Below, piece after piece: positions 18,107 through 37,623 of a stretch of 64,000 nt of DNA. The stretch comes from Halorientalis litorea (lineage in GTDB: Archaea > Halobacteriota > Halobacteria > Halobacteriales > Haloarculaceae), in assembly GCF_023028225.1 (NCBI RefSeq), contig NZ_CP095482.1, positions 992,001-1,056,000 of the forward strand, written 5' to 3'. Positions within the stretch are counted from its first letter, which is position 1; the number at the start of each line of letters is the position of its first letter. The notes beneath the pieces are model-generated. The model did not search any database, had not been told where the DNA came from, and saw only the letters and a program-made list of their open reading frames with translations. Made by a program: the position numbers and the translations under genes.

Positions 18107-20101
18107 ATGACAAACCTCGGTGGATTCCACGACAACGTGGCACGGGTAGACCTCGGCTCGGGCGACGTGAACTACGAGAGCATCGACGACGAGGACGCGA
18201 AGAAGTACATCGGGGCGCGGGGCCTCGGTGTCAAGTACGTCTTCGACCAAGGCCCGGACGTGGACCCGCTGGGCGAGGACAACCTGCTCGCGTTCATGAA
18301 CGGGCCGCTCACGGGTACACAGACCACGATGAGCGGCCGTATCGCCGTCTGCACGAAGTCACCGCTGACGGGGACGGTCACCGACTCCCACCACGGCGGG
18401 TGGTCGGGGGCACGGCTGAAGTGGGCCGGGTTCGACGGCCTGCTGTTCGAGGGGCGGGCCGACGAGCCAGTGTACGCCTTCGTCGAGGACGGCGAAGTCG
18501 AACTCCGGGACGCCTCACACCTCTGGGGGTCGGGCGTCCACGAGACGCGGGACACGCTGGAGGAGGAACTGGAAGGGGCCTACGGCAAGAACCTCTCGAT
18601 GATGGCCATCGGGCAGGGCGGGGAGAACGAAGTCAAGTACGCCTGCATCGTCAACGAGGACGACCGAGCCTCGGGCCGGGGCGGCACTGGCTGTGTGATG
18701 GGCAACAAGAATCTCAAAGCCGTCGTCGTCAAGTCCACGACGAAGATGCCCCAGCCGGCGGACAAGGAGACGTTCATGGAGGGGCACAAGCAGGCCATGC
18801 AACTCATTCAGGAGTCGGAGGTGACGGCACCGAACGAGGGCGGCCTCTCGATGTACGGGACGAACGTCCTGATGAACGCGACCGAGGAGATGGACGGCCT
18901 GCCGACGAAGAACGGCCAGTACTCCTCGACGCGGGCCATGTCCGACGCCGAAGGCGACGGCGAGCGAATCATCGACGCCGAGAAAGTCAGCGGCGAGAAC
19001 GTCCGCGAGAACATCCTCGTGGACGAACCCACCTGTCACTCTTGCCCGGTCGCCTGCAAGAAGGAAGTCGAGGTGACGGCGATGCACAAGGGCGAGGAGA
19101 TGAACGTGCGGATGGAGTCCTACGAGTACGAATCCGCGTGGGCACTCGGTCCCAACTCCGGCCATCACGACCGGGACCGCATCGCCGTGATGCTCGACAA
19201 GTGCAACGACCTCGGCATCGACACCATCGACACGGGCAACACCATCGCGATGGCGATGGAGATGACCGAGGAGGGGAAATTCGACGAGTTGGGCGACGTC
19301 TCCGAGTCGGGAGACTCGGAGGCTCGGGAGACAGCGTCTCCCGGCGGCATCGACTGGGGCGACTCCGACGAGATGATAGACCTCATCGAGAAAATCGGCC
19401 ACCGCGAGACCGAGCTCGCGGACCACCTCGCGGAGGGACCGACCCACCTCGGCGACGCGTTCGACGCCCACGACAACTCACTCGCGGTGAAGGGGCAATC
19501 GATGGCGGCCTACGACCCCCGGTGCATGAAGGGGATGGCCATCGGCTACGCCACCTCGAACCGCGGGGCCTGTCACCTGCGCGGGTACACCCCCGCCGCC
19601 GAGATTCTCGGCATCCCCGAGAAAGTCGACCCCTACGAACCGGCGGGTAAAGGCGAGTTGTGTGCTACCTTCCAGAACCTCCACGCCATCAGCGACAGCT
19701 TCGACATCTGCAAGTTCAACGCCTTCGCGGAGGGCATCGAGGAGTACGTCCTCCAGTACAACGGCATGACCGGACTGGACGTGACCGAGGAGGAACTCAT
19801 CGAGGCCGGCGAGCGCGTCTACAACCTCGAACGCTACTACAACAACCTGTGTGGCTTCGACGGCGCAGACGACGACTTGCCCGACCGCTTCGTGGAAGGG
19901 TCCGAGAACGCAATCCCCGCACAGGGCGCGAGCGAGGGCGAACTCGCCGAACTCGACCAGATGAAAGACGAGTACTACGAGGTTCGGGGCTGGGTCGACG
20001 GCGTCGTCCCCGACGAGAAACTCGACGCACTCGACATCGACGTCGGTCCCGGCACCGGCGTCTCCAGCGAGGGCGGCGCGGCCGCCCCGAGCGACGACTA
20101 G
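18107..20101 (+). CDS. Aldehyde:ferredoxin oxidoreductase family protein, second copy
   Basis: The 664-residue tungstopterin oxidoreductase is about 110 residues longer than its paralogue at 5504. It keeps GARGLGVKYVFDQG, the GPLTGTQTTMSGR cofactor region, iron-sulfur ligands in TCHSCPVAC near residue 310 and a late cysteine in SFDICKFNAF. Part of the extra length is a 16-residue insertion at residues 398-413 encoded by a double-hairpin DNA element. The C-terminus carries a Gly/Ala/Ser-rich tail. The substrate is unknown, but its neighbours point to aldehydes from amino acid breakdown. It lies downstream of the importer but has its own intergenic region. Confidence 0.92.
   Translation: MTNLGGFHDNVARVDLGSGDVNYESIDDEDAKKYIGARGLGVKYVFDQGPDVDPLGEDNLLAFMNGPLTGTQTTMSGRIAVCTKSPLTGTVTDSHHGGWSGARLKWAGFDGLLFEGRADEPVYAFVEDGEVELRDASHLWGSGVHETRDTLEEELEGAYGKNLSMMAIGQGGENEVKYACIVNEDDRASGRGGTGCVMGNKNLKAVVVKSTTKMPQPADKETFMEGHKQAMQLIQESEVTAPNEGGLSMYGTNVLMNATEEMDGLPTKNGQYSSTRAMSDAEGDGERIIDAEKVSGENVRENILVDEPTCHSCPVACKKEVEVTAMHKGEEMNVRMESYEYESAWALGPNSGHHDRDRIAVMLDKCNDLGIDTIDTGNTIAMAMEMTEEGKFDELGDVSESGDSEARETASPGGIDWGDSDEMIDLIEKIGHRETELADHLAEGPTHLGDAFDAHDNSLAVKGQSMAAYDPRCMKGMAIGYATSNRGACHLRGYTPAAEILGIPEKVDPYEPAGKGELCATFQNLHAISDSFDICKFNAFAEGIEEYVLQYNGMTGLDVTEEELIEAGERVYNLERYYNNLCGFDGADDDLPDRFVEGSENAIPAQGASEGELAELDQMKDEYYEVRGWVDGVVPDEKLDALDIDVGPGTGVSSEGGAAAPSDD
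19298..19345. repeat. In-frame double-hairpin element inside the second AOR gene
   Basis: Arms CTCCGAGT (19300-19307) and ACTCGGAG (19314-19321) form one hairpin; GGGAGAC (19326-19332) and GTCTCCC (19336-19342) form a second with a 3-base loop. An alternative pairing, GTCTCC with GGAGAC, is also possible. The 48 bases add residues VSESGDSEARETASPG between an aspartate and GGIDWGD without breaking the frame. A related element lies in pckA in the opposite orientation. Confidence 0.65.
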
Positions 20102-23084: not shown

Positions 23085-23165
23085 GCCTCCGGGAGGGACG
23101 GCCGAGACTAAAGTTTCCCGGCGGCGACCATTACAGATTTCACTCTGGGCCGGGCTATCCGGCGT

Positions 23166-23798
23166 ATGGACGAGCCCTCCCGAGTCGAGTTCGACTGGCT
23201 GACGCTCGACGACGCCGAGCGTGTCCTGTGGTCGGGTCAGCCGCACGTCTACAGTATCGTCCCCGCGCTGGTCGTCGGCATTCCCCTCTCGCTGCTACTC
23301 GTCGGCATCCCGATAGTCGTCGGCTCCTACCTCAACCGGGAGAACACGCACTACGTGCTGACGACCGATGCCCTCTACCAGAAACGGGGTATCTTCTCGC
23401 GGAGCGTCCGCAAGATAGCGTTCGAGAAGATACAGAACACCTCGTACAGTCAGGGCGCGCTCGGCAAGCACTTCGGCTACGGAAACGTCGATATCTCGAC
23501 GGCTGGCGGGTCCGGCGTCGAGATGCAGTTCGGCTCCGTGCCCGACCCCAAAGGCGTACAGGAACGCATCAACCGGCGAATTCGACAGGCCCGCGGGCCG
23601 AGAGACGAACACGAAAACGAAGAGTCGTCGGCGGAGGTACTCGACGAGATTCTCGCGGAGTTACGGGCCATCCGGACGGCACTCGATGCCGAAGGCGGAA
23701 CCGTCACAGAGCGGCAGGGGAACAGTTCGCAGTCAGAACGCCGCGAGCAGACCGGTCGGCGAGCGCGGGGTGACAGAGCCGATGGGAGCGGCGAGTGA
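23166..23798 (+). CDS. Membrane protein with bacterial PH (bPH2) domain, first of a pair
   Basis: The 210-residue protein has two adjacent hydrophobic segments (about residues 33-60) followed by a bPH2/YdbS-like domain (LTTDALYQKRGIFSRSVRKI, FGYGNVDISTAGGSG) and an acidic linker with a helical tail. The function is unknown in the family; a role in membrane or lipid organisation is inferred. It overlaps the next gene, which encodes the same architecture. Confidence 0.82.
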   Translation: MDEPSRVEFDWLTLDDAERVLWSGQPHVYSIVPALVVGIPLSLLLVGIPIVVGSYLNRENTHYVLTTDALYQKRGIFSRSVRKIAFEKIQNTSYSQGALGKHFGYGNVDISTAGGSGVEMQFGSVPDPKGVQERINRRIRQARGPRDEHENEESSAEVLDEILAELRAIRTALDAEGGTVTERQGNSSQSERREQTGRRARGDRADGSGE

Positions 23799-24363
23799 CG
23801 ACGGCGTGCCGTGGCTGACTGCCGGCCCCGGCGAGGCGGTTCGCTGGTGCGGTGGGCCGCGTATCCAGACAGCACTCCCGGGAGCCGTTATCGGCGTCGT
23901 CGTCGCCGCCGCCTCGGTGCTGGTCCCCGAGGTTCCGTCCCTGCTGGGGGTGGCCGGCGTCGTCCCCGCTGCCGGTGTGTATCTCTGGGTCCGGAACGTC
24001 GAGTACGTCGTGACGACGGACAAACTCTACCGGAAACAGGGTGTCCTCGGCCGGCGCGTGACTGCCGTGGGCTACGAGACAGTCCAGAACGCGTCCTACT
24101 CACAGGGCATCCTCGGGACGGCCTTCGGCTACGGGACCGTCACCTTCGACACCGCCGGCGGGAACGGTACCGAACTCGCTTTCAGCAACGTGACCGACCC
24201 GCGAGCAGTCGAGCAACTCGTCTCGGAGTTGCTCGGAGAGGAGGAGTCCCCTGCAGACGCGGCGGTTCCGGGGTCCATCGAGCAGTGGCAGGCCATCCGC
24301 GAGGAAGTGCAACGGCTCCGACGGACGGTCGAACAGCGAACCGACGCCGACCGCGAGCGGTAG
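23770..24363 (+). CDS. Membrane protein with bacterial PH (bPH2) domain, second of a pair
   Basis: The 197-residue protein repeats the design of the preceding one: two hydrophobic segments (about residues 35-80), then VTTDKLYRKQGVLGRRVTAV and FGYGTVTFDTAGGNG. The two genes are clearly a tandem duplication and overlap by 17-29 bases depending on whether GTG 23770 or ATG 23782 is used. They may form a heteromer. Confidence 0.8.
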   Translation: MTEPMGAASDDGVPWLTAGPGEAVRWCGGPRIQTALPGAVIGVVVAAASVLVPEVPSLLGVAGVVPAAGVYLWVRNVEYVVTTDKLYRKQGVLGRRVTAVGYETVQNASYSQGILGTAFGYGTVTFDTAGGNGTELAFSNVTDPRAVEQLVSELLGEEESPADAAVPGSIEQWQAIREEVQRLRRTVEQRTDADRER

Positions 24364-24364
24364 C

Positions 24365-26173
24365 TTACCGCTCCGCGACGTGGCGGACTTCACTGGCGAC
24401 ACCACGGGTAGATTCGGCCATCTCCGGGCCGCTCATCTCCGCCCGGCCGACGGCGAACGCGGACGGCCCCTCGACGACTACCTCGTCGCCCGGGCGGATG
24501 TCGTCGCTGGCGTCGACAACGCCGGGCGCGAGGACGCTCCCGTGAGGGACGAAGTCGTCTATCTCGACGCGTTTCGTCGGCACCGGACTCTCGACCCACT
24601 GGCGGGCACCCGCGAGCGTCAGCGAGAGGACGCCGTACTGAGGGACCATCGCCGCCAACTGCTCGCCGTCGGCGTCGGCCACCCGGAGTTTCGGGTAGAA
24701 CGCCTCCGTCTGGAGGTCCGGGAACAGGTCGTCGCCCGCGCCGGGGTATTCGGGGCTTCCGAACTGGTAGTCCGCGATGGCACGGACGGTGTTGTGTTCG
24801 CGCTCCCGCTTCCGATACGTCTCTTCGCCGTCGAGGGCATTTTCGAGGTTCGCCAGCGACTCGTCGGTCGTCGGGTGGTCCGGGACCGTGAACTCGGGGT
24901 CGTACGCCAGCGAGTCGGTGGCACGCTCGACGATTTCGCGGTAGCCCTCGTCGGGGACGTGTGCCACGATTCGGGGGTAGTCGGCCCGGCGGAGGTACGC
25001 TTCGAGTACGTCGGCGACGAACTCGGTTTCGGTCGCCGTCCACTCACCAGTGACCACCGAGTCGTAGTGTTGGGCGGGATAGGTACACTCCAACTCTTGG
25101 GGGACGACGCCGATGGGGGAGGTCATCGAGACGACGTGGCCCCGCCACTGGATGGCGTCGTGGAACTGGCCGTGACTCTGTGACTCGCTGTAGGGTTTCG
25201 AGGCCGAGCAGGGGACCAACACCAGCGGCGCGTCGAACCGGTTGCGGTAGCGCGTGGTCACGCGCTCGGCGAACCGCTGAATCTCGACCCGCCGGAGGCT
25301 GTCGTCGGTGGCGGCGGTCATCTCGGCCCGGCGCAGGACTGGTACCCGCTGTTCGAGGTAACTGTACTGCTGGTCGAGGCGGCGCATCGTCGCCGTCAGC
25401 CACTGGTCGTGGCGGGCCTGCCCCTCGACGTAATCGCGCAGGCGACCGTCCCGAATCCGGCGACGGACGCGCTTCAGTTCCGCCGCCAGCGCGTTGACGT
25501 TGTGTGCCACGCAGTCCTCGCGGTCGAACGCCTCGCGGGGCGTCTGACACGCGGGACAGGCACAGGGGAGTTCGTCCAAGTCTTCGAGGAACTGGTGGCC
25601 GTCGGTCGTCAGGTAGCGGCCCTGCGTCCCGCAGACGACGGCACGGTCGGCGTCCACGAGGTCCACGCCCGCGTAGACGAGCGTGGCGACGTTGGCCGGC
25701 GTGGCGACGCCCGAGAGGTAGAGCGCGCTGTCCGCCGGGACGGCGTCGCGCGTGGTCACGATAGCGTCGACGAACGCCGCCGCGTGGCCGACGTAGCCGC
25801 CCGCACCCGAGAGGACGTAGCCGTCCGCACCGCAGTCGCTCGCGGTGGACGGCGAGACGACGGCCGCACTCGGGTAGTCCACGTCGGTGTAGTCGGTGGC
25901 GAACGCGGCTTCCACCTCGTCCGGCGTCCCCGCGGGAAGTCCCCGGTGGGGCAGGACGGTCAGCACGGACTCGTCGCCGTCGGGCACCTCGCGGTCGGTG
26001 GGCCAGCGACTCCCGGCGTCACGGATGACGGCCGCGGCGTGTGTTGCTTCGGCGTCGCCGCCGTCACCGTCGGCGTCGGCGACGAGCGCGGGCGTCGGCA
26101 CCGGGTCCGCGAGGCGCAACTCCCCCATCCGGGCGGCCCCGTCGCGCTCGTGGACCTCGAAGTAGTCGGTCAT
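24365..26173 (-). CDS. arcS: Archaeosine synthase ArcS (TGT-like, with PUA domain)
   Basis: The 602-residue protein converts preQ0 at position 15 of tRNA to archaeosine. It has a degenerate TGT-like N-terminal half with a zinc site (CACPACQTP), the ArcS-specific VPCSASKPYSESQSH motif near residue 330 and a C-terminal PUA RNA-binding domain (about 525-602; SVLAPGVVDASDDIRPGDEV). The active TGT partner tgtA lies immediately upstream with one small gene between. Identity is firm because of the PCSxSKPY motif. Confidence 0.92.
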   Translation of the reverse strand: MTDYFEVHERDGAARMGELRLADPVPTPALVADADGDGGDAEATHAAAVIRDAGSRWPTDREVPDGDESVLTVLPHRGLPAGTPDEVEAAFATDYTDVDYPSAAVVSPSTASDCGADGYVLSGAGGYVGHAAAFVDAIVTTRDAVPADSALYLSGVATPANVATLVYAGVDLVDADRAVVCGTQGRYLTTDGHQFLEDLDELPCACPACQTPREAFDREDCVAHNVNALAAELKRVRRRIRDGRLRDYVEGQARHDQWLTATMRRLDQQYSYLEQRVPVLRRAEMTAATDDSLRRVEIQRFAERVTTRYRNRFDAPLVLVPCSASKPYSESQSHGQFHDAIQWRGHVVSMTSPIGVVPQELECTYPAQHYDSVVTGEWTATETEFVADVLEAYLRRADYPRIVAHVPDEGYREIVERATDSLAYDPEFTVPDHPTTDESLANLENALDGEETYRKREREHNTVRAIADYQFGSPEYPGAGDDLFPDLQTEAFYPKLRVADADGEQLAAMVPQYGVLSLTLAGARQWVESPVPTKRVEIDDFVPHGSVLAPGVVDASDDIRPGDEVVVEGPSAFAVGRAEMSGPEMAESTRGVASEVRHVAER

Positions 26174-26211
26174 GGCTCCGGGTCGGGGAGCGGCGGTGAA
26201 CTATCTTTCCT

Positions 26212-26475
26212 TCACAGTCGCGCCGCGAGGACGCTGAGGACGACGAGTACCGCACCCGCCGCGACGAGGTAGGCGAGCCACGAGTCGCTGACCGAACTCG
26301 ACCGGTCCGGCTCTTTCAGCCCGTAGAGGCCGGCCCCGAGGACCAGCGCGCTCGCGGCTATCGTTCCACCCCGCGCGAGCGTGAGACCCGCCGCGAGGAC
26401 CGACAGCACCGTATCGAGCCCGATGACGGCCCCGTAGACGGCCATCGACCCGTGGAACAGGTTCGGGCGGTTCAT
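26212..26475 (-). CDS. Small membrane protein between tgtA and arcS
   Basis: The 87-residue protein has about three hydrophobic helices and no known motif. It overlaps the tgtA stop by four bases (ATGA), so it is co-translated with tgtA. I do not recognise a function. Confidence 0.75.
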
Positions 26476-27968
26476 TCGGTCCCTCCGTGCCAATCCGTGT
26501 CGTCCACGCCGAGTTGGTGGGTGTCGACCGAGCCGGGGAGGGCCGCGAGTGCCTGCTCGGGCCAGTCCCAGTGGGCGACCGTGAACGTCGCGTCCGGGTT
26601 CGCCTCGACCAACCGACGGACGCCGGCGGCGGCGGCCTCGTAGGCCGGGCCGTCGAGTCGGTCGGGGAGTTCCGCGTTGAGCGGGTACACCTCCGAGAGT
26701 TCCCGCGGGTACGGGCCGAAGGGGGGCCGGAGCCGCCACGTCTCGTCGTACGCCTCGTTCGTGTCCCCCTCGCTGAGGAGGATGTCGCCTGTGGCGTCCA
26801 GTCGCGAGAGGCGGTCGTGGTGCCGCAGGACCTCGGGCCGGGCCGCGCTCTCGCTTGAGAGGTAGAAGAAGGCGTCCTTCGAGGCGGGGTCGGTCCGTTC
26901 GAGTTGTGCGGCGTGGCCGGTCAGCGCGCGGTAGCCGTCGAGCATCGCCGGGTGCCCCCGGGCGCGCGTCTCGACGAGTTCCAGCAGGTTCCCCCGCCGA
27001 ATCGCCTGCTTGATGGTTCGCATCTCCTCGTAGGTGACGTGGAGGTTGTGTTCCGCGAGCAGTCGTTCGCGCTCGTCGGCGGGTTCGGCCTCCAACTCCG
27101 AGGGCGTGGTGGTGGCACAGACCGGACACGAACAGGGGAGATAGTCGAGGTCCTCGAGGTGTTCGGTCCCCCGGACGGTCAGGTAGCGGTCGTCCCGGGC
27201 GTACAGCGCGTAAGCGGCGGAGTCGAACAGGTCACACCCCATCGCGACGGCGAGTGCGAACATCATCGGGTGGCCCGCACCGAACAGGTGGACGGGGGCG
27301 TCCGCGCCGAGGCCGCGTTTCGCCGCCGTCACCACGTCCACGATGTCGGCGTATCGGTAGTTGTTCAACAGCGGGACCACCGCACCGACGGGGAACACGT
27401 CGAGGTCGGTTCCGTAGGCCCGTTCGGCGGCCGACTCGCGGAGGTCCGGGAACGCACCGCCTTGGACCGGCGCGTTGACCAACATCTCGCCCGTGTCCAC
27501 CGTCTCGGCGAGTTCGAGTCGCTCTTGGGTCCGGTCGAGTTCCGCCGCCGCCTGCTCGCGGTCGGCGTCGGGCGGCGTCGGGATGTCCACTGGCGTCCCG
27601 ATGTCCGACCCGATGTCCCGCTGGAACTCGAGAATCTCGCGGGTGCCCACGTCGATGTCGCCGTACTCGGCGAGTTGGAACGACCCGGAATCGGTCATGA
27701 TGGCACCCGAGAAGTCGTAGAGGTCGTGCAGTCCCTCCTCGAGTGCGCGCTCGCGGAACGGGTCGGACCCGTACAGCGAGTAGCCGTTGGTGATGAGAAT
27801 CTCCGCCCCGAACTCGGCTTCGAGGCGGGCGGGTTCGACTGTCCGAACGTGTGGGTTGACCACCGGCAGGAGCGCGGGCGTCTCGACGGTCACGTCGGCC
27901 CGCGGAACCGTCAACTCGCCGAGTCGGCCGGCGGCGTCGTAGTCCCGCACCTCGAAACAGTCGGGCAT
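26472..27968 (-). CDS. tgtA: Archaeosine tRNA-guanine transglycosylase
   Basis: The 498-residue enzyme exchanges guanine-15 of archaeal tRNA for preQ0. The catalytic region has [15 protein letters not shown] (Asp nucleophile), [13 protein letters not shown] and the zinc ligands CSCPVC followed by a histidine. Compared with full-length archaeal TGT of about 580 residues it lacks the C-terminal PUA domain, as usual in haloarchaea, where arcS carries one. It is the first gene of the tgtA-membrane protein-arcS group. Confidence 0.93.
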
Positions 27969-28011
27969 TGCCCCGGCGTAGCCCCGGGGCGGGCCTAAGG
28001 CTGTCGTTCGG

Positions 28012-28443
28012 CTACAGCATCGCGGGGTCGGTACGGTCGGCGATACCGTCGAAGCCGTCGTCGAACGCGAGTATCGTGTCGATGTCGTGTCTGTCCGCCA
28101 GCGCGACGGTAGCCGCGTCGGTGAAACTCAGTCCTTGGTCGTCGAACTGTTCGAAGGTCTCGACAGCCGACCCAAAGACGGCCGGTGTTACGTACAGCAG
28201 AGAGTACACGTCCGGAAAGCTACCGACGCCACGGAGTCGTTCCCCGAGCGTCTTCGCCACCTCGAACGACCCCGTTCTGCGCTGGGTCAGCGTCACGACT
28301 TCGTCGTAGATGTAGTCGCTCGTGAACGGTTGCCCGAGTTCGCCGTCGTACACCGTCTCCATCGCGTCCGCTGCCGCGTCGTGACGGGTCGCCGACCGGT
28401 CGTACTCCGCGTAGAGAACGCCCGTATCCACGAGAACCGTCAT
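28012..28443 (-). CDS. PIN-domain ribonuclease toxin, VapC-like
   Basis: The 143-residue protein has the PIN pattern: [13 protein letters not shown] at the N-terminus and acidic residues in [12 protein letters not shown] and [11 protein letters not shown] that would bind Mg2+ or Mn2+. VapC toxins cleave tRNA or rRNA. It overlaps the upstream antitoxin-like gene by four bases, the usual type II toxin-antitoxin arrangement. Confidence 0.85.
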
Positions 28444-28715
28444 CCGTACAGTATCTCGTCGATGTCGTCCTCGTCCGTTTCCCGACCGGATTCGATGCGC
28501 GTCTCCGAGAGCCGCGACCGCTCGGCGTCGGACAGCGGGACACTCTCTTCTCGAAACTCGTCCACGAACTCGGCTTTGGATTCGTACGCGGTCGCCACCA
28601 ACTGTGCCAGCAGTTCCTGCTGGGTCACTTTCTCGCCCGTCGCCAACCGGATTTCGGCCTGCAACTCCTCTAACCTCGATTTTGCCTCCTCGTCCATCTT
28701 GACCGCTGTCGCCAT
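28440..28715 (-). CDS. VapB-like antitoxin
   Basis: The 91-residue acidic protein has an N-terminal ribbon-helix-helix-like segment (ATAVKMDEEAKSRLEELQ) and a disordered acidic C-terminus that would bind the toxin. The start at 28715 follows a short region with two GTAACT direct repeats (28716-28745) that could be its operator. The pair is on the minus strand, toxin second. Confidence 0.75.
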   Translation of the reverse strand: MATAVKMDEEAKSRLEELQAEIRLATGEKVTQQELLAQLVATAYESKAEFVDEFREESVPLSDAERSRLSETRIESGRETDEDDIDEILYG

Positions 28716-28775
28716 ACCTGTAGTTACAACTGCAACCAAGTTACTCTTTCTACCAGAATCGGCGGTCCGTCGCTA

Positions 28776-29330
28776 TCAGGCGAACGCGTCGTAGTAGAGG
28801 ACGCCCATCGCCGTCCGGCCGTCGCGCACGTCGCCGTCGCGGATACCCTCCCGGAGGGCGTCGAGGGTGGTCGTCTCGACGCGGATGGACTCGTTGAAGT
28901 CGAGGCTCTGTTCGCCCGCCGGTTCACAGTCGCGGGCGACGAAGTAGTGGAAGACGGCGTCGCTGATGCCGTTCGCCGGTTCGACGGTGGTCAAGTGCTC
29001 GACCGAGTCGGTGGTGTAGCCCGTCTCCTCTTCGAGTTCCCGCACTGCGGTGGCTTCGAGGTCGACATCCTCGCCCTCGACGCCGCCCGCAGGGAGGCCG
29101 CGGTTGACCCGCTTGACCGCCTGTCGCCACTCCTCGATGACCACCACCTCGCCGTCGGCGGTGAACGGGAGGACGACCACGCTCGCGCTCTCGGAGAGGT
29201 AGTCGAAGTCGGTCTCCGTCCCGTCGGGCAGTCGGACTTGCTCGCGCTGGATGTCGAAGCCCGGACACATGTAGGCCGTCTCGCCGTACAGCGTCTCCCA
29301 CGCGAGGTCGGCCCCGGAGTCGTCGGTCAT
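28776..29330 (-). CDS. NUDIX hydrolase, ADP-ribose pyrophosphatase type
   Basis: The 184-residue protein has a full Nudix box, GGVEGEDVDLEATAVRELEE plus ETGY, with the REXXEE metal ligands intact. The upstream EEWRQAVKRVNRGLPAG stretch is typical of ADP-ribose pyrophosphatases, which hydrolyse ADP-ribose and related nucleoside diphosphate sugars. Confidence 0.88.
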   Translation of the reverse strand: MTDDSGADLAWETLYGETAYMCPGFDIQREQVRLPDGTETDFDYLSESASVVVLPFTADGEVVVIEEWRQAVKRVNRGLPAGGVEGEDVDLEATAVRELEEETGYTTDSVEHLTTVEPANGISDAVFHYFVARDCEPAGEQSLDFNESIRVETTTLDALREGIRDGDVRDGRTAMGVLYYDAFA

Positions 29331-29445
29331 AGCCGGTCAACGGCCCGGTGGCTCAAAAGCACCCATCAAACTCGGAATCCCGTGTTTGGCGTTTGCACGC
29401 CACACGAGTTCTCGTCCGTGGTGTGGTGACGCACCGAGTGCCCGG

Positions 29446-29823
29446 TCAGGCCTCGTCGGGGTCGTAAGCCCGCCCGATATCGTGTTTCGGCGCGCCGACG
29501 CCGAGGACCCGGGTCGGGCCGTCGGCGTCGGTCGGCGCGTGGGGCCGGATGGGACTCTCCGGTTCCGAGACGAACACCTCGCCGGGGTCGACGACGTACG
29601 TCTCCGCGGGCGTCTCGACGTGGAGTTCGCCGGCGGCGACGTAGAACAGTTCCTCCCGGCGTTCGTGGTAGTGGTAGGTCGTCGACAGTTGCTCGCCGGG
29701 AGCGAGGGTGTACACTGCGGCCGCGAGCTGTGCCAGTTCCGCGGCGTCTGCGATACCCCGGCGGTCACAGGGGTGGTCGGGCGACGCGGACAGGTCGTCG
29801 GGGTCGATGACGTGATAGCCCAT
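29446..29823 (-). CDS. Cupin-domain protein
   Basis: The 125-residue protein is a single cupin barrel: STTYHYHERREELFYVAAGE is the first metal-binding motif and VDPGEVFVSEPESPIRPHAP the second. Enzyme or binding role unknown. It may be a sugar isomerase-like or mannose-6-phosphate isomerase-like cupin. Confidence 0.82.
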   Translation of the reverse strand: MGYHVIDPDDLSASPDHPCDRRGIADAAELAQLAAAVYTLAPGEQLSTTYHYHERREELFYVAAGELHVETPAETYVVDPGEVFVSEPESPIRPHAPTDADGPTRVLGVGAPKHDIGRAYDPDEA

Positions 29824-29847
29824 ACCGGAGGCGACGGCAGTGTCACC

Positions 29848-31959
29848 CTACAGTGTGTCGGCGTCGAGTGCCTGTTCGGCCCGTCTGTCCGCCTGTTCGA
29901 GACGACGCTCGACAGCGTTGACCAGCGACTCCGGGAGGTCGTCACTGGCGTCGAGGAGGCGCTCACCAGCCCGTTGCAGGTTCTCGGTGGCCACTTCGAG
30001 CCGTCGGTCGGCCCCGCCGGCGTCACCGTCTTCGGCGGCGTCGGCGGCCCGCGCCGCGGCCGCCGCCGCCGCATCGAAGGCCCGTGCGAGACCACGCACA
30101 CCGGGCGGTAGTCCTGCCGTGTCGTCGTCCCTGCCGGCGTCACCGTCGTCACCGCCGCCGTCCTGCCCGCCCACGGCGCGCACCTCCGTCCCCGTCTCCT
30201 CGGCGATGGCGGAGAGGAACGTGGCGAGCGACGCCTTCCCCGTCCGCGGGTTCTCGATGGTCGTCGCCGCCTCGTCCGCGGGGTTGACGCGGAACGCACC
30301 CACCTCGTCGTCGGCGTCCCTGACCTCCGTCGTGTAGGCTCCCCGGCGGTCGACGTAGACCGCGTCTCGGCCGTCGAGGGGTGCGTCGTACAGACGGCCC
30401 GCGAAGTCGTCCTCGACGGCGAGAGCACGCAGGTCGTCGTCGGTCCCGTCGGCGTCCACTCGGACCTTGACGGCCCGTTCGTTCGCGGTCAGCGCGACAT
30501 CGCCGTCGACGCCCGCACGAGTCGGTTCCGGGCCGTCCGAGACCGTGACGCGTTCGCTGTGGGGCGCGTACCCGGGTCCGTTGACCGTCAGCCGGTGGTC
30601 ACCCGCGGGCACGTCGTCCACGACGACGGTCCCGGCGAAGGAGGGAACCGCCTCGGGGTCACTCTCCAGTCGTGCCACCGTCTCGACGGTGGTCTGCTCC
30701 GTCGTGACGCCCTCGCCGTCGGGGGCGTCCTCGTTCTCGTCGGTCCGTCGGACGGCCGCGACGACGCGGTTGATGGGGGCCGGGTCGCCGATGGCGTCGT
30801 ACCGCTCGGCGAGTGCCTGCCGGTGGGCCGGTTCTGAGATGTCCGCCGCGGGGTTCTCGTACCGCTCCTGTTCCCACGGGAGTCCGGTGGTCGTGATGTA
30901 CCCGGAAACGAGGTCGTCGGCGAAGTCGGGCACCAAGAACTCGAAACTCAACTGCGGCCCGGTGAACGCCGTGATGTGTTCCAGTTCCGCCGTCGACACG
31001 AGATCGTACCCCACGTCGACGTCGGCGTCCGCCGCGTTGCGGTCCCCATCGAAGCCGAAGATGGCTCCCGTCTCGCGTTCGGGAAGGTCCGCGGGTGGCG
31101 ACGACAGTTCCGAGAACGAGCGGACGGTGAGGTCGGGCGCGACCAGCGAGGACCGGTCCACCGAGGGGAGGCGGTCGTCCTCGTACACCGGTCGGCCGTC
31201 GAGTTCCGGCACGAGGAAGGGGAGGCGAAAGCCCTCGTCACGGGGCAACCCGTAGGCCGCGGGAATCGCCGCGAGTGACTCGCTGGCCTCCAGCGTCCGG
31301 TTCGTGATGTCCGCGAAGGTGTCGCCGGTCGGCAGGCGTTGGAAGCGGTCGGGAATGTCGTTGACCGAGAGCGCGCTGGAGTGTGACCCCAGCTCCGACA
31401 GCACCCGCGGCACCGTTCGCTCCGGGTCGACGAACTCGTTGTTGGGCACCTTCCGCGAGTGGGCACTGGCGACGAACAGTTCCGGTTCGTCGGCCTCGCG
31501 GTTCACGAACACGTGAACCACCTCCCAGTCGTGCCAGTGGAAGTTCACCGAGAACTGGTCGAACGCCCCGTACCACCAGTACTGGACGGCGGCGAGCGGG
31601 GAGTTCTCGTAGGCCCGAACGTGGTAGAACAGCGTCGGGTCCGGCGGCCCGTCCTCCGCCTGTGACCGGCGGGCGTACCCGTCGAAGGCGTCGAACCCGT
31701 CGACGACCGGGTCGCCGTCCTGTTCGCTCTCGTACGGCCGCGGGTCAGTCGGGTACCACTTCTCGGCGGCGTCGAAGTACAGCACCGGCGCGTAGCGTTC
31801 GGCCAACCGGCGCGCGTCTTCGTCCGTCACGTCCGCCGTGGTCGCGTCCGAGTCGCGCTGGAGGACGCTACACCCGGCAGTGAACGATGTTCCGGCGACG
31901 GCGAGCGTCCCAGTCGCCTGCAGCAGGTCCCGGCGACTGAACGCTGATGTGTCGGTCAT
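29848..31959 (-). CDS. Large Tat-exported lipoprotein with Vps62-like domain
   Basis: The 703-residue protein begins with a Tat signal (FSRRDLLQ) and a lipobox (FTAGC), so it is exported folded and lipid-anchored. Residues about 45-180 (APVLYFDAAEKWYPTDPRP, VNFHWHDWEVVHVFVN) resemble the Vps62/DUF946 domain seen in some secreted proteins. A middle region (about 430-480; GTVVVDDVPAGDHRLTVNG) looks like an Ig-like or carboxypeptidase-regulatory fold. The last 120 residues are Ala/Asp-rich helices. Similarity is by motif only and function is unknown. Confidence 0.7.
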   Translation of the reverse strand: MTDTSAFSRRDLLQATGTLAVAGTSFTAGCSVLQRDSDATTADVTDEDARRLAERYAPVLYFDAAEKWYPTDPRPYESEQDGDPVVDGFDAFDGYARRSQAEDGPPDPTLFYHVRAYENSPLAAVQYWWYGAFDQFSVNFHWHDWEVVHVFVNREADEPELFVASAHSRKVPNNEFVDPERTVPRVLSELGSHSSALSVNDIPDRFQRLPTGDTFADITNRTLEASESLAAIPAAYGLPRDEGFRLPFLVPELDGRPVYEDDRLPSVDRSSLVAPDLTVRSFSELSSPPADLPERETGAIFGFDGDRNAADADVDVGYDLVSTAELEHITAFTGPQLSFEFLVPDFADDLVSGYITTTGLPWEQERYENPAADISEPAHRQALAERYDAIGDPAPINRVVAAVRRTDENEDAPDGEGVTTEQTTVETVARLESDPEAVPSFAGTVVVDDVPAGDHRLTVNGPGYAPHSERVTVSDGPEPTRAGVDGDVALTANERAVKVRVDADGTDDDLRALAVEDDFAGRLYDAPLDGRDAVYVDRRGAYTTEVRDADDEVGAFRVNPADEAATTIENPRTGKASLATFLSAIAEETGTEVRAVGGQDGGGDDGDAGRDDDTAGLPPGVRGLARAFDAAAAAAARAADAAEDGDAGGADRRLEVATENLQRAGERLLDASDDLPESLVNAVERRLEQADRRAEQALDADTL

Positions 31960-32133
31960 TGGTCTGTGTGGGGGAGCGACCCCGAAAGCTGTTCGGACGA
32001 AACCGCGGTCGCGGTATATCCTTTCTGGCAGTGGGGCCGAGCGGTGGTTCCGGTGGACCGGCAGGCACCACCCAACGACTCACAAAACCACCGATAATTG
32101 TCAGTAGAGGGGCGAAAAAGTGTGAGTATGTAG

Positions 32134-32206
32134 TGGGCCGGCGCAGATTCGAACTGCGGTTACGGCCACCCGAAGGCCGAAGGATACCAAGCTACCCCAC
32201 CGGCCC
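32134..32206 (-). tRNA. tRNA-Pro, anticodon CGG
   Basis: The minus strand folds into a complete cloverleaf: acceptor GGGCCGG with CCGGCCC, anticodon stem CGGCC with GGCCG around loop TTCGGGT (anticodon CGG, reading CCG), and T-arm CGCAG TTCGAAT CTGCG. The discriminator base is A and CCA is not encoded. There is no intron. A short AT-rich box lies about 30 bases upstream. Confidence 0.95.
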
Positions 32207-32388
32207 GCTTGGTATCGAATGATTGCCTGCCAGCCGATAAAACGCTTCCGAACTACTACCGTCGACGCCCGTCGGGTTCGAACACAGCCGTACTCCGTAC
32301 GCGAATCCAGGCGTCCGAACCGGCGGAGGTGTCGTGACGGTACTGGCGTGGACGGTCACACTCATGTTGGTGTAGCCCAACCGTACGT

Positions 32389-33759
32389 ATGCAGGTTTTC
32401 TGGCATCAGCGTGACCTCCGCGTTCCAGACAACAGGGGACTCACCTCGGCGACGAAGACGGGACCGACACTGCCCGCATACATCGTCGACACCGAACTCT
32501 TGAAGCGAATCGGGAAGCGACAGCGTGCGTTCCTGCTGGACGGCGTTCGGAATCTGAAACGACAGTACCGCAAACTCGGGTCGGACCTGCTCGTCCGCGT
32601 CGGACCAGCGGCCGAAACGCTCGAAACGTTGGTCTCCGAGTTCGACGCCGACCGGGTCTACTACAACCGTCACTACCGTCCGGCCCGTCGGAACCGACAG
32701 CGGGCCGTCGACGAGGCAGTCCCGACGGAATCGGTCACCGACCTCGTTTTAGTCGACCCGGAGCGGCTGGACTCGCAGTACGCGAACCACAGCCAGTTCT
32801 ACAACGACTGGCAAGACGAACACAAGCTAACGCCGTTCGGCGTTCCCGACGCGGAGGGCCTCGTCTCGCTCGACGACGATACCGGAGTCCCGTCGGTCAC
32901 GGCCGACATCGACCTTCCGGCGGCTGGCTACCGCGCGGCACGTGACCGGTACGAACAGTTCCTAAACGCCGGTATCGAGACGTACAACGACACCCGCGAC
33001 GACATGCACCGGGCGGTGGAACAGCCAGTCGGTGCCGTGTCGCGGCTCTCGCCGTACATCGCGGCGGGGATGCTCGGACTTCGAGAGATATGGGCCGACG
33101 CGAGCGAGCGGTACGACGCTGCGCAGGGTAGCGCGCGGCGGAACATCGACAAGTTCCGGTACGAACTCTCGTGGCGGGAACAGAACTACCACCTGCTGTA
33201 CTACAACCCGACACTACTCACGGAGAACTACAAGTCGTTCCCCAACGAAATCGAGTGGCGGGACGACGACGACCACCTCGAAGCGTGGAAGCGCGGGGAG
33301 ACTGGATACCCGTTCGTCGACGCAGGTATCCGACAGCTGAACGAGGAGGGATACATCCACAATCGACCGCGACAGGTCGTCGCGTCCTTCCTGTGCAAGC
33401 ACCTCCTGATCGACTGGCGAGAGGGTGCGCGATACTTCAAGAAGCAACTGCTCGACCACGACCCCGCGAACAACTACGCGAACTGGCAGTGGATCGCTTC
33501 GACGGGCACCGACAGCGTCGACGTGCGAATCTTCGACCCCGTGTCACAGATGTCGAAGTACGACGACGGTGCCACGTACGTCACCGAGTACGTTCCCGAA
33601 CTGCGAGACGTGCCCGCAGACAAGATTGTCGACTGGCCGACGCTCTCTCGGGACGAGCGTGACCGGTTGGCACCCGAGTACCGACACCCGGTCGTGGACC
33701 GCAACGAGGGGTACGAGCGGGCACAGCGGACGTTCGAGCGCGCGCTCGGAAAGCGATAA
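32389..33759 (+). CDS. phr: DNA photolyase/cryptochrome family protein
   Basis: The 456-residue protein has the N-terminal antenna domain (VFWHQRDLRVPDN) and the C-terminal FAD-binding helical domain (RYELSWREQNYHLLYYN, NNYANWQWIASTGTD, VRIFDPVSQMSKYD), which bind the flavin and repair pyrimidine dimers with blue light. The length is usual for a class I photolyase. Photolyases are common in haloarchaea, which live in strong sunlight. It could be a cryptochrome or 6-4 type enzyme; sequence alone does not settle that. Confidence 0.92.
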   Translation: MQVFWHQRDLRVPDNRGLTSATKTGPTLPAYIVDTELLKRIGKRQRAFLLDGVRNLKRQYRKLGSDLLVRVGPAAETLETLVSEFDADRVYYNRHYRPARRNRQRAVDEAVPTESVTDLVLVDPERLDSQYANHSQFYNDWQDEHKLTPFGVPDAEGLVSLDDDTGVPSVTADIDLPAAGYRAARDRYEQFLNAGIETYNDTRDDMHRAVEQPVGAVSRLSPYIAAGMLGLREIWADASERYDAAQGSARRNIDKFRYELSWREQNYHLLYYNPTLLTENYKSFPNEIEWRDDDDHLEAWKRGETGYPFVDAGIRQLNEEGYIHNRPRQVVASFLCKHLLIDWREGARYFKKQLLDHDPANNYANWQWIASTGTDSVDVRIFDPVSQMSKYDDGATYVTEYVPELRDVPADKIVDWPTLSRDERDRLAPEYRHPVVDRNEGYERAQRTFERALGKR

Positions 33760-33940
33760 TCTGGCGGCAGTCCCGTCGTCGCCCCTCGCTCGCTGGGATT
33801 CGGCCCCGGCCACCGGGTGCGGCGGGGGACGACCCGGTCTCTCCGGCTCGCGCGGTGTCAGAATCGGACGCCGGGACAGTCGGGGCCGCGCCAGCCCGGG
33901 CCGCACCAACACTTAGGCCCCGGCGGGCCGACACCCGGGT

Positions 33941-34453
33941 ATGGAAGTCGGCATCGTCTCCGACACGCACGACAACTACGGCGCCGCAACGGAAATCGCC
34001 GAGCGGTTCGCGGACCGCGGTATCGAGACGGTCCTCCACTGTGGAGACTTCATCTCGCCGCCGTTGCTCGGAGCCTTCGAGGGGCACGGTTTCGTGTTCC
34101 ACGGCGTCCTCGGGAACAACGACGGAGAGCGGGACGGACTCGAACGGACCATCGACGACCTGAGCGCGGACAGCAAACTCCACGGCCGGGAGGTGGACCT
34201 GACCCTCGACGGGGTTCGGGTTCACGCCCTCCACGGTGACCAAGGCATCGACACGGTGAACACCCGCGCCGAGTCCGGGGAGTACGACGTGGTCTGTTAC
34301 GGGCACTTCCACGTCGCCGAACAGCGCGACGTGGACGGAACGACAGTCGTCAACCCCGGCGCGCACTTCCCCACAGTCTCCGACGAGAACCGGAGCGTGG
34401 CGATACTCGACACCGAGACAGGTGGGCTGGAGTTCCTCGGCATCGAGGGATGA
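33941..34453 (+). CDS. YfcE/MJ0936-type metallophosphoesterase
   Basis: The 170-residue protein has the calcineurin-like metal sites: GIVSDTHDN, VLHCGDF, GVLGNNDGE, ALHGDQG and CYGHFHVAE, which bind two metal ions. The family hydrolyses phosphodiesters, for example 2',3'-cyclic nucleotides. A TATA-like CTTAGG about 28 bases upstream supports the ATG. Confidence 0.9.
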   Translation: MEVGIVSDTHDNYGAATEIAERFADRGIETVLHCGDFISPPLLGAFEGHGFVFHGVLGNNDGERDGLERTIDDLSADSKLHGREVDLTLDGVRVHALHGDQGIDTVNTRAESGEYDVVCYGHFHVAEQRDVDGTTVVNPGAHFPTVSDENRSVAILDTETGGLEFLGIEG

Positions 34454-34525
34454 GGAGTCGGGACCGCAACCCCGACGGACAGCCGTCACTACGCGGCCGA
34501 ACGAACGTGAAGAAGCGGTGCCACC

Positions 34526-34684
34526 TCAGGAGAGGTCGGGGACGAGCGGCGCGTCGGCCTCGTCGAGTACAGCGTTCGCTCCGGTCGTTTCGTCGCGCGT
34601 CCGGCCGCCGTCGGTTCGGAGCCGGGACTTGGGCATCTCGGGAACGAGCGGAGCAGTGGTCTCGATGTCGGGCCGTTCGGTCAT
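34526..34684 (-). CDS. Small acidic/proline-rich protein with twin APLVP motifs, 52 residues
   Basis: I do not recognise this protein. It contains two copies of a short motif, APLVPEM near residue 10 and APLVPDLS at the very end, separated by a charged linker. An in-frame ATG is preceded by GAGGTG at a Shine-Dalgarno-like distance and by TATA-like TAAATAA at 34714-34720. It is too short to be certain as coding, but its composition is haloarchaeal and its frame is uninterrupted. Confidence 0.5.
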   Translation of the reverse strand: MTERPDIETTAPLVPEMPKSRLRTDGGRTRDETTGANAVLDEADAPLVPDLS

Positions 34685-34813
34685 TGTCTTCACTCCCACC
34701 TCAGAGTCCACGGTAAATAAACGTAATGGTCTATAATTATCACGGTCGTTCGTAGGTAGTGTCTCGGCGGGAGAGATGGCAACCGCGAAGAGGGGCGCGT
34801 ACCGAGTCGAGGC

Positions 34814-35275
34814 ATGGAAGAGCGGCCAGTATCTGAGGAAGACTGGGCGACAGTCGTCCGGAACGTTCCGGTCGTGTCGGTCGATTTGGTCGTCGAGACG
34901 GACGAGGGCGTAGTGTTAGGTAAACGAGAGAACGACCCCGCGAAGGGGGAGTGGTTCGTCCCCGGTGGGCGCGTGCAGAAAAACGAGCAGTTGACGGAGG
35001 CCGTCCGTCGAGTCGCGCGCACGGAACTGGACGCGACAGTCACTATCGAGCGAAAGTTGGGTGTCTACGAGCACTTCTGGGACACCGCCGACGTTCCGGA
35101 CGCCGACGGCAAACACTACGTCCCCATCGGGTACCACGTCCGTCCGACCGACGAGACGACGTTTCGGGCGGACGACCAACACGCCGCAGTCGACGTGTTC
35201 GCGCCGCCGTTCGAGTTCGACCTGCACCCCTACGTCGAGGCGTACCTCCGGGACGCTGGCGTTCCGGTAGGGTGA
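34814..35275 (+). CDS. GDP-mannose mannosyl hydrolase-type NUDIX protein
   Basis: The 153-residue protein starts like GDP-mannose mannosyl hydrolase (PVVSVDLVVETDEGVVLGKR) and has that subfamily's altered Nudix box GGRVQKNEQLTEAVRRVART, in which the usual REXXEE is degenerate. The HYVPIGYHV block after it is also characteristic. The enzyme would release mannose or another hexose from a GDP sugar and may feed or trim nucleotide sugars for the glycan locus downstream. Subfamily assignment is by motif. Confidence 0.78.
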   Translation: MEERPVSEEDWATVVRNVPVVSVDLVVETDEGVVLGKRENDPAKGEWFVPGGRVQKNEQLTEAVRRVARTELDATVTIERKLGVYEHFWDTADVPDADGKHYVPIGYHVRPTDETTFRADDQHAAVDVFAPPFEFDLHPYVEAYLRDAGVPVG

Positions 35276-35292
35276 GTCGGAACGCGGCGGCG

Positions 35293-35889
35293 TCAGTACG
35301 TCCGAAAGCCGTCGGTGTCGAGGTAGTTGTGGGCGACGGTGATGGCGTCGTCTGCGTGGAGCGCGCGCGGGCCGAGGCTGACACGGCGGTCCGCGCGCTC
35401 GGCGAGTAGGTCACGTTCGCGCTCGGTGAACTCGCGGTGGTCCGAGAGGACGAACGCGGGGTCGGTCGGCGGGTCCACCTCGACGGCGGGTGTGCCGTCG
35501 GCGTGGAGGTGGACGAGCGTCCCGTCGGCGGCCACCTCGTCGATGACGCTCTCGACGCCCCGGCGGGAGATGCTGACGCCCGGCGTACTCTCGGCGGCGA
35601 CGTGGCCGACGGCCGTCTCACGGTGGTCGAGTGCCTCCCGAATCAGGGCCGCGGTGCTGCGCTCGTCTGGGTTGAGGCGGTGGAGGTCGGCCCCGTCGAA
35701 GTGGACGGTAAACTCGTCTCCGAGGACGAGGTGAACGCGCACGTCCGCGCGACTGTCGTGAGAGAGCAGGAGTGCGGCGGTGACACACCGGCAGAGTACG
35801 TCCAGCCGTCCCGCCTCGCTCGGGAGCGCGTCGAGGGGAAACTCCGGCGTCGTGGGGGCCTCGTGGCCGATGACGACGAACTGTCGCAT
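35293..35889 (-). CDS. trmY: tRNA (pseudouridine-54-N1)-methyltransferase TrmY
   Basis: The 198-residue protein is a SPOUT-class methyltransferase that makes N1-methylpseudouridine at position 54 of archaeal tRNA with SAM. The N-terminus MRQFVVIGHEAPTTPEFPLD, the CRCVTAALLLSHDSRAD block and the C-terminal knot region (VSLGPRALHADDAIT) are all typical. Confidence 0.92.
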   Translation of the reverse strand: MRQFVVIGHEAPTTPEFPLDALPSEAGRLDVLCRCVTAALLLSHDSRADVRVHLVLGDEFTVHFDGADLHRLNPDERSTAALIREALDHRETAVGHVAAESTPGVSISRRGVESVIDEVAADGTLVHLHADGTPAVEVDPPTDPAFVLSDHREFTERERDLLAERADRRVSLGPRALHADDAITVAHNYLDTDGFRTY

Positions 35890-36033
35890 ACTGAATCGTC
35901 CCGGTGGCAGGGCTTACGTCCGTCGGTCCGCCCCGGGACGGGGCGGCAGGTGGCCACGCTCACCCGGCCGTCGGTGAGAGCAGTAAACACGAGAGACGCC
36001 AGACAGTGGCACACGGCCGATAAATAGCGCGGC

Positions 36034-36040
36034 TTTATTT
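36034..36040 (+). promoter_or_regulatory. TATA box of pckA
   Basis: TTTATTT is centred 27 bases before ATG 36064, giving a leaderless transcript. The same heptamer at the same distance precedes the actin homologue at 39999. Confidence 0.6.
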
Positions 36041-36063
36041 GTTGGGCTACGTTTGTTCTGGTA

Positions 36064-37623
36064 ATGTCAGAGTCCGGTATTGCCGTCACGAAACCGGCGA
36101 CAGTGTTACCCGACCCGGCGACAGCCGACAACGTCGTCTACAACCCATCGTTCGACGAGCTACGGGAGTTCTCCAGCCACCTGGAGACGACGACGGAGTT
36201 CGGGTCGCCGGCATACGTCAGCGAAGAGCAGTCACGCAACGCGGACAAGACACGCAACGCCGTCGACCACGAGTTCGACGACGCGGACTACCAGCACTTC
36301 GAGGACGCCGTCTCCTACGTCGAAGACACGGAGATGGTGTGTCTCGACCGGCAGGTCGGCCGCCACACCGACCACTCCTACGTCTGCCGGTACTACGTGC
36401 CGAAGGAGTACGGCCGCATCGCGTTGGCGTGGGCCAAACTCTTCGAACCGGTCCACGGTGACCGCGAACCCGACTTCTTCACCGTGCAGATTCCCGACCA
36501 CGAGGAGACGGCCATCCGCATCCTCCCCGAGGCCGGGTTCACCGCCGTCCTCGGCAGCGACTACACCGGGGAAGCCAAGAAGTCCTTCCTCCGCCTGTTC
36601 ATGTTCTACGCCAAACAGGCCGGTGGCCTCGGCCTCCACGCCGGGAGCAAGCGCGTGTGCCTCGAACAAGACGACGAGGGCGGACTGGAGACGGTCGGCC
36701 AACTCTTCTTGGGCCTCTCTGGGACCGGCAAGTCCACGCTGACCGCCCACGGCCTCGGTTTGGAGGACCCGGAAGGCACCGGGGAGCGAAGCTCCCCGAG
36801 CTCTCGCTCGCAGGCTCGCGAGAACGCCACAATGCTCCAAGACGACGTGTGCGCGCTCCTGCCCGACGGCACCGTCGCCGGGAGCGAAGGGCAAGGCCTC
36901 TACATCAAAACCATCGGCCTCGAACGCGAGGAGCAACCCGAACTCTACGACGCCGCGACCCACGAGTCCGCCGTCCTAGAGAACGTCGACGTGGCCGCGG
37001 ACGGCACCGTCGACTTCGACAGCGACCACCACACCACGAACGGCCGCGCCGTCATCCAGCGGTCCTGTCTCGACTCCGCGGGCGAGGACATCGACCTGCC
37101 GGACCTCGACCAGATTTTCTTCATCACCCGCAACCCCGCGATGCCACCCGTCGCCAAACTGGACTACGACGAGGCCGCCGCCGCGTTCATGCTCGGCGAG
37201 TCCATCCAGACCAGCGCGGGCGACCCCTCGAAGGCCGGCGAATCCATCCGCGTCGTCGGCACCAACCCCTTCATCATGGGGTCGGAAGGCGAGGAGGGCA
37301 ACCGCTTCCGTGACCTCATCGCGGACCTAGACGTGGACTGTTTCGTCCTCAACACCGGGTCGGTCGGCGACCGGGACGTGGGTGTCGAGGACACCGTGGC
37401 CCTCCTGCGCGGCATCTCGCGTGGCACCGTCGAGTGGACCGACGACGACGCGACGGGCCTGACCGTCCCGAGTGCCGTGCCGGACGTGGACGTCGCCGAG
37501 TTCGACGTGGCCGAGAACCTCGACGGCTACGAGGAGCGCGCCGCGACGTTGCGCGCCGAACGCGAGGCGTATCTGGCCGCGTTCGAGGACCTCAGCGAGG
37601 ACATTCGCGACGCCGTGTACTGA
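36064..37623 (+). CDS. pckA: Phosphoenolpyruvate carboxykinase (ATP)
   Basis: The 519-residue enzyme converts oxaloacetate and ATP to PEP and CO2 in gluconeogenesis. The P-loop GLSGTGKST is at residues 217-225, followed by the metal-binding LQDDVCAL and the VPVAKL-type substrate region (NPAMPPVAKLDYDE). The protein is intact but carries a 16-residue low-complexity stretch, TGERSSPSSRSQAREN, at residues 239-254, between the P-loop helix and ATMLQDD. It is encoded by a double-hairpin DNA element related to one in the AOR gene. The inserted residues are basic/serine-rich, unlike the acidic background. Confidence 0.94.
   Translation: MSESGIAVTKPATVLPDPATADNVVYNPSFDELREFSSHLETTTEFGSPAYVSEEQSRNADKTRNAVDHEFDDADYQHFEDAVSYVEDTEMVCLDRQVGRHTDHSYVCRYYVPKEYGRIALAWAKLFEPVHGDREPDFFTVQIPDHEETAIRILPEAGFTAVLGSDYTGEAKKSFLRLFMFYAKQAGGLGLHAGSKRVCLEQDDEGGLETVGQLFLGLSGTGKSTLTAHGLGLEDPEGTGERSSPSSRSQARENATMLQDDVCALLPDGTVAGSEGQGLYIKTIGLEREEQPELYDAATHESAVLENVDVAADGTVDFDSDHHTTNGRAVIQRSCLDSAGEDIDLPDLDQIFFITRNPAMPPVAKLDYDEAAAAFMLGESIQTSAGDPSKAGESIRVVGTNPFIMGSEGEEGNRFRDLIADLDVDCFVLNTGSVGDRDVGVEDTVALLRGISRGTVEWTDDDATGLTVPSAVPDVDVAEFDVAENLDGYEERAATLRAEREAYLAAFEDLSEDIRDAVY
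36779..36822. repeat. In-frame double-hairpin element inside pckA
   Basis: GGGGAGC (36781-36787) and GCTCCCC (36791-36797) close a 3-base loop; CTCGC (36803-36807) pairs with GCGAG (36818-36822) in a second hairpin. Reversed, the element reads with the same order and lengths of parts as the AOR element, ending in a shared GCTCGGG...CCCGG block. Confidence 0.65.

Follow-up and report, generated by a model that had tools for sequence, protein, structure and literature searches.

We describe a dispersed family of double-hairpin DNA elements in haloarchaea, larger than first claimed, whose copies lie between genes and, with the reading frame kept, within them. The family, its exact boundaries, its absence from orthologues and the preservation of frame are directly established. 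We consider it fairly probable that this is a minimal palindromic mobile element without a transposase, like the terminal-only PATEs (palindrome-associated transposable elements) or REPs, and that its gene-borne copies are tolerated as in-frame loops. Two copies lie in the window (the whole 64-kb stretch of DNA analysed), one in pckA and one in a gene of the aldehyde ferredoxin oxidoreductase (AOR) family, and their coordinates are given in Table 1.

Table 1. Window coordinates of the two double-hairpin elements, their host genes and the flanks of the pckA insertion.
Feature	Position	Strand	Details
Host gene pckA, PEP carboxykinase (ATP type)	36064..37623	+	519 aa
Double-hairpin element in pckA	36778..36825	-	48 nt, GTTCTCGCGAGCCTGCGAGCGAGAGCTCGGGGAGCTTCGCTCCCCGGT; coding strand: peptide TGERSSPSSRSQAREN, codons 239-254
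pckA copy, hairpin 1	36800..36825	-	26 nt, 8 bp + inner tandem G.A mismatch + one pair
pckA copy, hairpin 2	36779..36799	-	9 bp, 3-nt loop TTC (plus strand: GAA)
pckA insertion, left flank, coding strand	36772..36777	+	GAAGGC
pckA insertion, right flank, coding strand	36826..36831	+	GCCACA
Host gene, AOR family	18107..20101	+	664 aa
Double-hairpin element in AOR gene	19298..19345	+	48 nt, peptide VSESGDSEARETASPG, codons 398-413
AOR copy, hairpin 1	19298..19323	+	11 bp, 4-nt loop
AOR copy, hairpin 2	19324..19344	+	9 bp, 3-nt loop

In each copy a 26-nt hairpin abuts one of 21 nt, and a single base completes the 48 nt; in its minus orientation the pckA element reads GTTCTCGCGAGCCTGCGAGCGAGAGC-TCGGGGAGCTTCGCTCCCCGG-T. 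The copies align over 48 columns without a gap and their stem changes are compensated, which bears out what the initial annotation had said of equal order, spacing and compensation, down to an identical 26 + 21 + 1 partition. It had also rightly placed an element in pckA, at 36779-36822, and given both copies a similar size, but the true extent is 36778-36825, four bases more, and the length is exactly 48 nt in both rather than near 45 bases. Its view that both copies are in frame holds, each being a precise insertion of 16 codons with the frame kept. The 16-residue pckA peptide does lie downstream of the P-loop, but about 15 residues past GLSGTGKS (residues 217-224) and thus not immediately next to it; the initial annotation had it come right after the P-loop helix. 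This gene is the sole PEP carboxykinase (PEPCK) match in the genome, and its P-loop residues are intact. The AlphaFold model of the enzyme has a pLDDT of 80, with values below 50 in the insert and likewise in the P-loop segment; according to this model, in which the P-loop itself is of low confidence, the inserted residues probably form an unstructured loop.

A bulk sequence-identity search of the genome returned the pckA copy alone, and structure models were therefore used; the family is recognised by its structure and short conserved blocks and not by bulk identity, because this genome has a single close match to the pckA copy. The covariance model R1, built from the pckA and AOR copies only, scored these sources at 62.8 and 61.4 bits in the window, where the next best place reached 16.7 bits, and over the 3.2-Mb genome (3.21 Mb) it found a third copy (38.9 bits, E 0.0016) in the riboflavin synthase gene ribE. 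R2, built from three copies, gave matches in 77 of the 146 genomes of the taxonomic family at E up to 1, with a mixed weak end, and R3 was built from 63 aligned matches. R3 scores are bimodal, one group lying above about 33 bits and the other below about 28 bits. Its counts, which are lower bounds with 150 candidates scored per genome, come to at least 9 (about 9) copies in the window's own genome (G000) and, in seven further Halorientalis genomes, at least 18-34 apiece; the further copies that the initial annotation had expected genome-wide are thus found, the third by R1 and more by R3. At the level of the order, matches at E up to 0.001 were obtained in 163 of the 195 genomes sampled, and the element is present in most sampled genera. 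A phylum sample (n=197), in which most genomes from outside the order are smaller and their G+C may be different, served as a specificity control, and all 30 of its matching genomes lie inside the order. Within the sample, the family is restricted to haloarchaea. Chance palindromes in a GC-rich genome, joined to unrelated low-complexity protein insertions, would account for the 23 perfect hairpins of at least 8 bp in the window; this explanation is refuted by the gap between 61 and 17 bits, by the in-frame third copy found blind and by the precise empty sites described below, and with the 30 phylum-sample matches all within the order it retains next to no probability.

In the window's own genome, gene-borne copies were found in pckA, AOR, ribE, etfA (L103), a CoA ligase gene (L187, 57 nt) and mutS (L189, 51 nt), and non-coding copies at L188 and L190. 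The initial annotation had argued for a dispersed family of protein-coding palindromes; dispersal and coding copies are supported, but the family is not purely coding and many copies are intergenic. Near-identical copies occur in unrelated genes and genera, those of AOR (G000) and nadB (G017) differing at 2 of 48 bases. In some genomes (G043, G110, G299 and G122) a single variant of 43-53 nt is present in many copies that are the same or nearly so; these may stem from recent bursts or belong to larger repeats. Rfam covariance models matched tRNAs alone in the loci and gave no match in window positions 19000-37500, and one exact 23-nt pattern, too strict to mean much, had no match in viral contigs.

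The layout common to the family is GTC-stem1-loop-stem1'-GGCTCG-stem2-loop-stem2'-CGGY, in which the G-T-C start, the GGCTCG junction and the CGGY end are the conserved blocks and the two unlike hairpins always stand in one fixed order. Length ranges from 45 to 66 nt and is 48 nt for the pckA, AOR and ribE site 1 copies. Stem 1 frequently has CGCGAGC-GAA-GCGAGCG as its interior, including a tandem G.A mismatch. Its inner GCGAAGC loop is an unusually stable DNA mini-hairpin, which suggests recognition as single-stranded DNA. In an alignment of 26 copies without gaps, 92% of cells are paired, against 30-50% in slid controls, and compensated changes are seen at 14 of 20 pairs, counts that are inflated because the copies were found by structure-based models. 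The mutS and CoA ligase insertions lay outside every training set, and mutS was then checked independently against orthologues.

Exact empty and filled sites are available at five positions of four genes (pckA, AOR, ribE sites 1 and 2, and mutS), presence and absence being compared between species with one genome per species. The 16 pckA codons are absent from all 39 other haloarchaeal PEPCK loci (whole genomes supplied 30 and GTDB contigs 10, with overlapping species and the window's own locus subtracted), which read ...DPE/DATMLQDD or ...DPEG/ATMLQDD, the slash marking the insertion point; these are clean junctions (DPE/DATM or DPEG/ATM) with no variable insert region, the precise absence for which the initial annotation had asked that orthologues be compared. 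With 36778-36825 removed, pckA reads GAAGGC/GCCACA, or DPEG/ATM, the form of Halorientalis sp. LUM.68 (L035). The AOR insert of 16 codons is absent in every orthologue compared; without its 48 nt the gene reads GGCGAC/GGCATC, and the best-conserved orthologues, L048 and L053, read GGTGAC/GGCATC and GGCGAG/GGCATC. At ribE site 1 the window genome has a precise 48-nt in-frame insertion, and orthologues are without exactly 16 residues; its peptide GAESDDSARRETESPG and the AOR peptide VSESGDSEARETASPG are read from the same element frame. At ribE site 2 the comparison can be made within one genus, between the filled GGCGAG[GGTCCCGCG...TCCGACGGT]GACTGG (L247), with 54 nt, and the empty GGGGAG/GACTGG (L253), and in mutS between the filled ADESDG[51 nt]/DVTFL and orthologues without the insert. 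In two species a tRNA-Tyr pseudogene, a partial copy split by the element just ahead of GTTCAAATC as CCC[66 nt]/GTTCAAATC, adjoins the intact tRNA-Tyr (L190:1001-1066, L195:1001-1066).

The element itself is all that distinguishes a filled site from an empty one: there is no target duplication, and the boundary is ambiguous by at most 1 nt. This is a G that is seen in both element and flank but once in the empty site, so that the cut could lie a base further along. The +1 base, a position outside the model, is G in 117 of the 122 distinct copies. Among non-tandem, non-coding copies, +1 is G in 37 of 38, -4 is C in 24 of 38 and -3 is G in 28 of 38, other positions being weak. Position -1 has a C in 39 of 59 copies. 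Insertion is before a G, often after CGNC, and flank preference beyond the +1 G is weak in non-coding copies. The empty sites carry no hairpin precursor, which bears on whether the hairpins could have arisen without mobility, by local template-switch or quasi-palindrome repair, their likeness being due to GC-rich composition and repair bias. Hairpin-templated correction would indeed give stems that differ between copies with nearly perfect compensation. We nevertheless hold such an origin to be very improbable, and strongly disfavour it for the non-kinase copies, as one 48-nt layout, with the same GGCTCG junction and the same ends, is seen again and again in dozens of unrelated genes and places between genes, and near-identical copies are found across genes and genera.

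Coding potential around the 122 distinct copies was assessed by a codon model for which acidic ORFs from the window and from syntenic stretches served as training set. The check on matches in genes and in frame proposed in the initial annotation gave a uniform result, since all 69 copies classed as coding (39 non-kinase and 30 histidine-kinase copies) keep the frame, with a length divisible by three and an insertion in phase 0, between codons. The 48 non-coding copies have lengths of 0, 1 and 2 modulo 3 in 19, 12 and 17 cases (Fisher p for frame, 5e-15 for all copies, 1e-10 without kinases and 6e-8 with one copy per site, on a hand-made grouping into 25 sites). Gene-borne copies add an insert of 15-21 residues that is mostly non-basic. 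Non-kinase coding copies are in plus orientation in 37 of 39 cases (e.g. VPASEASGGSEDESSG), the two minus ones being pckA and L104, and the kinase copies are all minus, with the peptide AVEHGSTSPRSQARED adjoining the host N-box AVEHG. Plus phase 0 offers few stops (12% of non-coding copies have one) and little net basic charge. Minus-strand phase 2 has stops in 6% of non-coding copies against that 12%, yet is never used. Selection on frame alone was accordingly rejected as the cause of phase 0, and a codon-boundary target preference, added to selection, probably contributes to it. Occurrences of the target CGGC^G have phase 0 at rates of 66% and 81%.

We propose a model in which the element is, or was, mobile. 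It would move as single-stranded DNA recognised via its hairpins, as is thought for IS200/IS605-derived terminal-only PATEs, and an enzyme supplied in trans would copy or move it. It would be inserted precisely and without target duplication before a G, landing both in and between genes, and in-frame insertions into genes would survive as flexible, harmless loops on the host protein. In pckA the element adds 16 residues, which follow the P-loop helix and precede the strand after it. The peptides themselves would be neutral passengers, filtered by selection. Among 27 Y1 transposase loci of seven Halorientalis genomes no element-like ends were found that would mark an autonomous partner, the best R3 score being 21 bits; within these loci, IS200/IS605 Y1 transposases were rejected in this role as their ends differ. 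The nearly complete Halorientalis genome G048 holds at least 28 elements and has no PF01797 (Y1 transposase) match.

The anatomy of the element resembles that of terminal-only PATEs, and its behaviour resembles that of Rickettsia palindromic elements (RPEs) and intragenic REPs. In Haloquadratum walsbyi, 52-bp terminal-only PATEs consist of fused terminal palindromes, e.g. ISHwa23 and HqIRS46 (Dyall-Smith et al. 2011, PMC3119063), and these 52-nt forms occur as strain-specific insertions in Haloquadratum (PMC3119063). As characterised in that paper, they share with the present element a haloarchaeal host, a length of about 50 nt, two fused near-terminal palindromes, the lack of coding capacity, of terminal inverted repeats and of target duplication; the present element, at 45-66 nt, is too short for a transposase. 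The same text gives PATEs a targeting sequence of 4-5 nt on the 5' side, which the preference of our element for CG at -4/-3 may resemble, other 5' positions being weak, and it matches PATE palindromes to IS605-type transposons, whereas no IS with such ends was found among the Halorientalis Y1 loci. It describes PATEs in one species, against most sampled genera of the order for the present family, and in this accessible portion describes no in-frame protein-coding PATEs, unlike what we find here. A MITE would have terminal inverted repeats and usually target duplications, and the element has neither.

Close in biology to the mobile element proposed above would be a REP/BIME-type system, in which each hairpin is REP-like and a RAYT-like enzyme moves pairs, but in which the transposase is domesticated and the pair does not descend from an IS. 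The GTAG and CGTC REP superfamilies consist of covarying hairpins that are mostly intergenic, with some in-frame intragenic copies and several in repair genes (Di Nocera et al. 2013, PMC3733652); the CGTC class has no known transposase, and the phyla listed for the superfamilies include no archaea (PMC3733652). The size, GC-rich hairpins, compensated stems and tandem clusters (L202, four abutting copies) of our family agree with such a system, as do intragenic copies that include one in the mismatch-repair gene mutS, REPs being known in repair genes (PMC3733652), and CGTC REPs likewise lack a dedicated transposase. The unpaired GTAG or CGTC tag is absent, however. Unlike GTAG REPs, the element ends in paired GTC and CGGY, and unlike CGTC REPs, with their unpaired CGTC, single hairpin of 8-9 bp and CCA tail, it has two hairpins, no CCA tail and a GTC that is paired in stem 1, with C at -1 in 39 of 59 copies. 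Head-to-head dimers dominate among REPs (PMC3733652), whereas here two unlike hairpins stand in fixed order and abutting copies run head-to-tail, and among PF01797 matches there is no RAYT with flanking copies. We regard the REP/BIME reading as rather unlikely, if deserving of consideration. At L202:948-1159 the four intergenic elements differ in sequence and length and abut head-to-tail, as if each had inserted at another's end.

Palindromic elements that code for protein have already been described in Rickettsia and in certain REP-rich bacteria (PMC10969869, PMC3733652). RPEs (Ogata 2000, 2002) are about 150 bp and belong to AT-rich bacterial hosts, as summarised in the review PMC10969869; as they are described there, they too are palindromic, selfish-looking DNA found in frame in unrelated genes, absent from orthologues and accompanied by intergenic copies, and the present family differs from this description in being archaeal, GC-rich, 45-66 nt long and built of two abutting hairpins. 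In the open-access literature we found no description of protein-coding palindromic elements in Archaea, nor of this family or its core sequence GCGAGCGAAGCGAGC; an earlier mention in subscription papers or genome supplements is possible. More tentatively than for the element itself, we suggest that an order-wide family of about 50 nt may still be mobile as single-stranded DNA through a trans-acting enzyme and may routinely write in-frame loops into conserved enzymes, which could make it, in Archaea, the counterpart of the palindromes that code for protein in Rickettsia, and also a general source of lineage-specific insertions. If so, the hosts of new loops would include PEPCK, riboflavin synthase, AOR, NadB, EtfA, MutS and histidine kinases. 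The family would account for many unexplained insertions in haloarchaeal protein alignments, and haloarchaeal annotation and evolutionary protein analyses should mask such inserts. Genes such as ribE, hit at three sites, would be natural experiments in loop tolerance. As several haloarchaea are genetically tractable, the mover of such tiny palindromes and the role of the added peptides become testable.

Inserts in ribE lie at three sites across haloarchaea (L237-L247, L207): site 1 is filled in the window genome, site 2 in several genera whose close relatives have it empty, and the site 3 insert of G020 has a palindrome that is no longer apparent. In nadB (L-aspartate oxidase) the same element site is used in six genomes of four genera (L074-L079), and the insertion is thus old or the site was reused; in etfA the same insertion site is found across genera (L103, L119, L120). 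The keeping of sites across genera in nadB, etfA and ribE site 2, together with the retained palindromy of coding copies, would also be expected of functional inserts, in which selection in the host acts on the peptide or on the mRNA hairpins (for regulation, high-salt solubility or folding pauses). This we consider unlikely, given a patchy presence among close relatives, the use of three ribE sites, functionally unrelated hosts, a site 3 palindrome that can no longer be seen in G020 and non-coding copies that are equally structured. The DNA mismatch repair gene mutS of G000 (L189) is a further host, with its 51-nt element; bacterial REPs have also been reported in repair genes. In histidine kinases of several genera (L087, L090, L169, L172, L111, L168) the element lies in the ATP-binding N-box, frequently in tandem arrays of two to four 48-nt units in which the host AVEHG is repeated, and the N-box appears to be a hot spot at which the element expands in tandem. 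Here the insert copies the host's own AVEHG codons, which is in keeping with an origin by local repair and suggests local duplication at this site.
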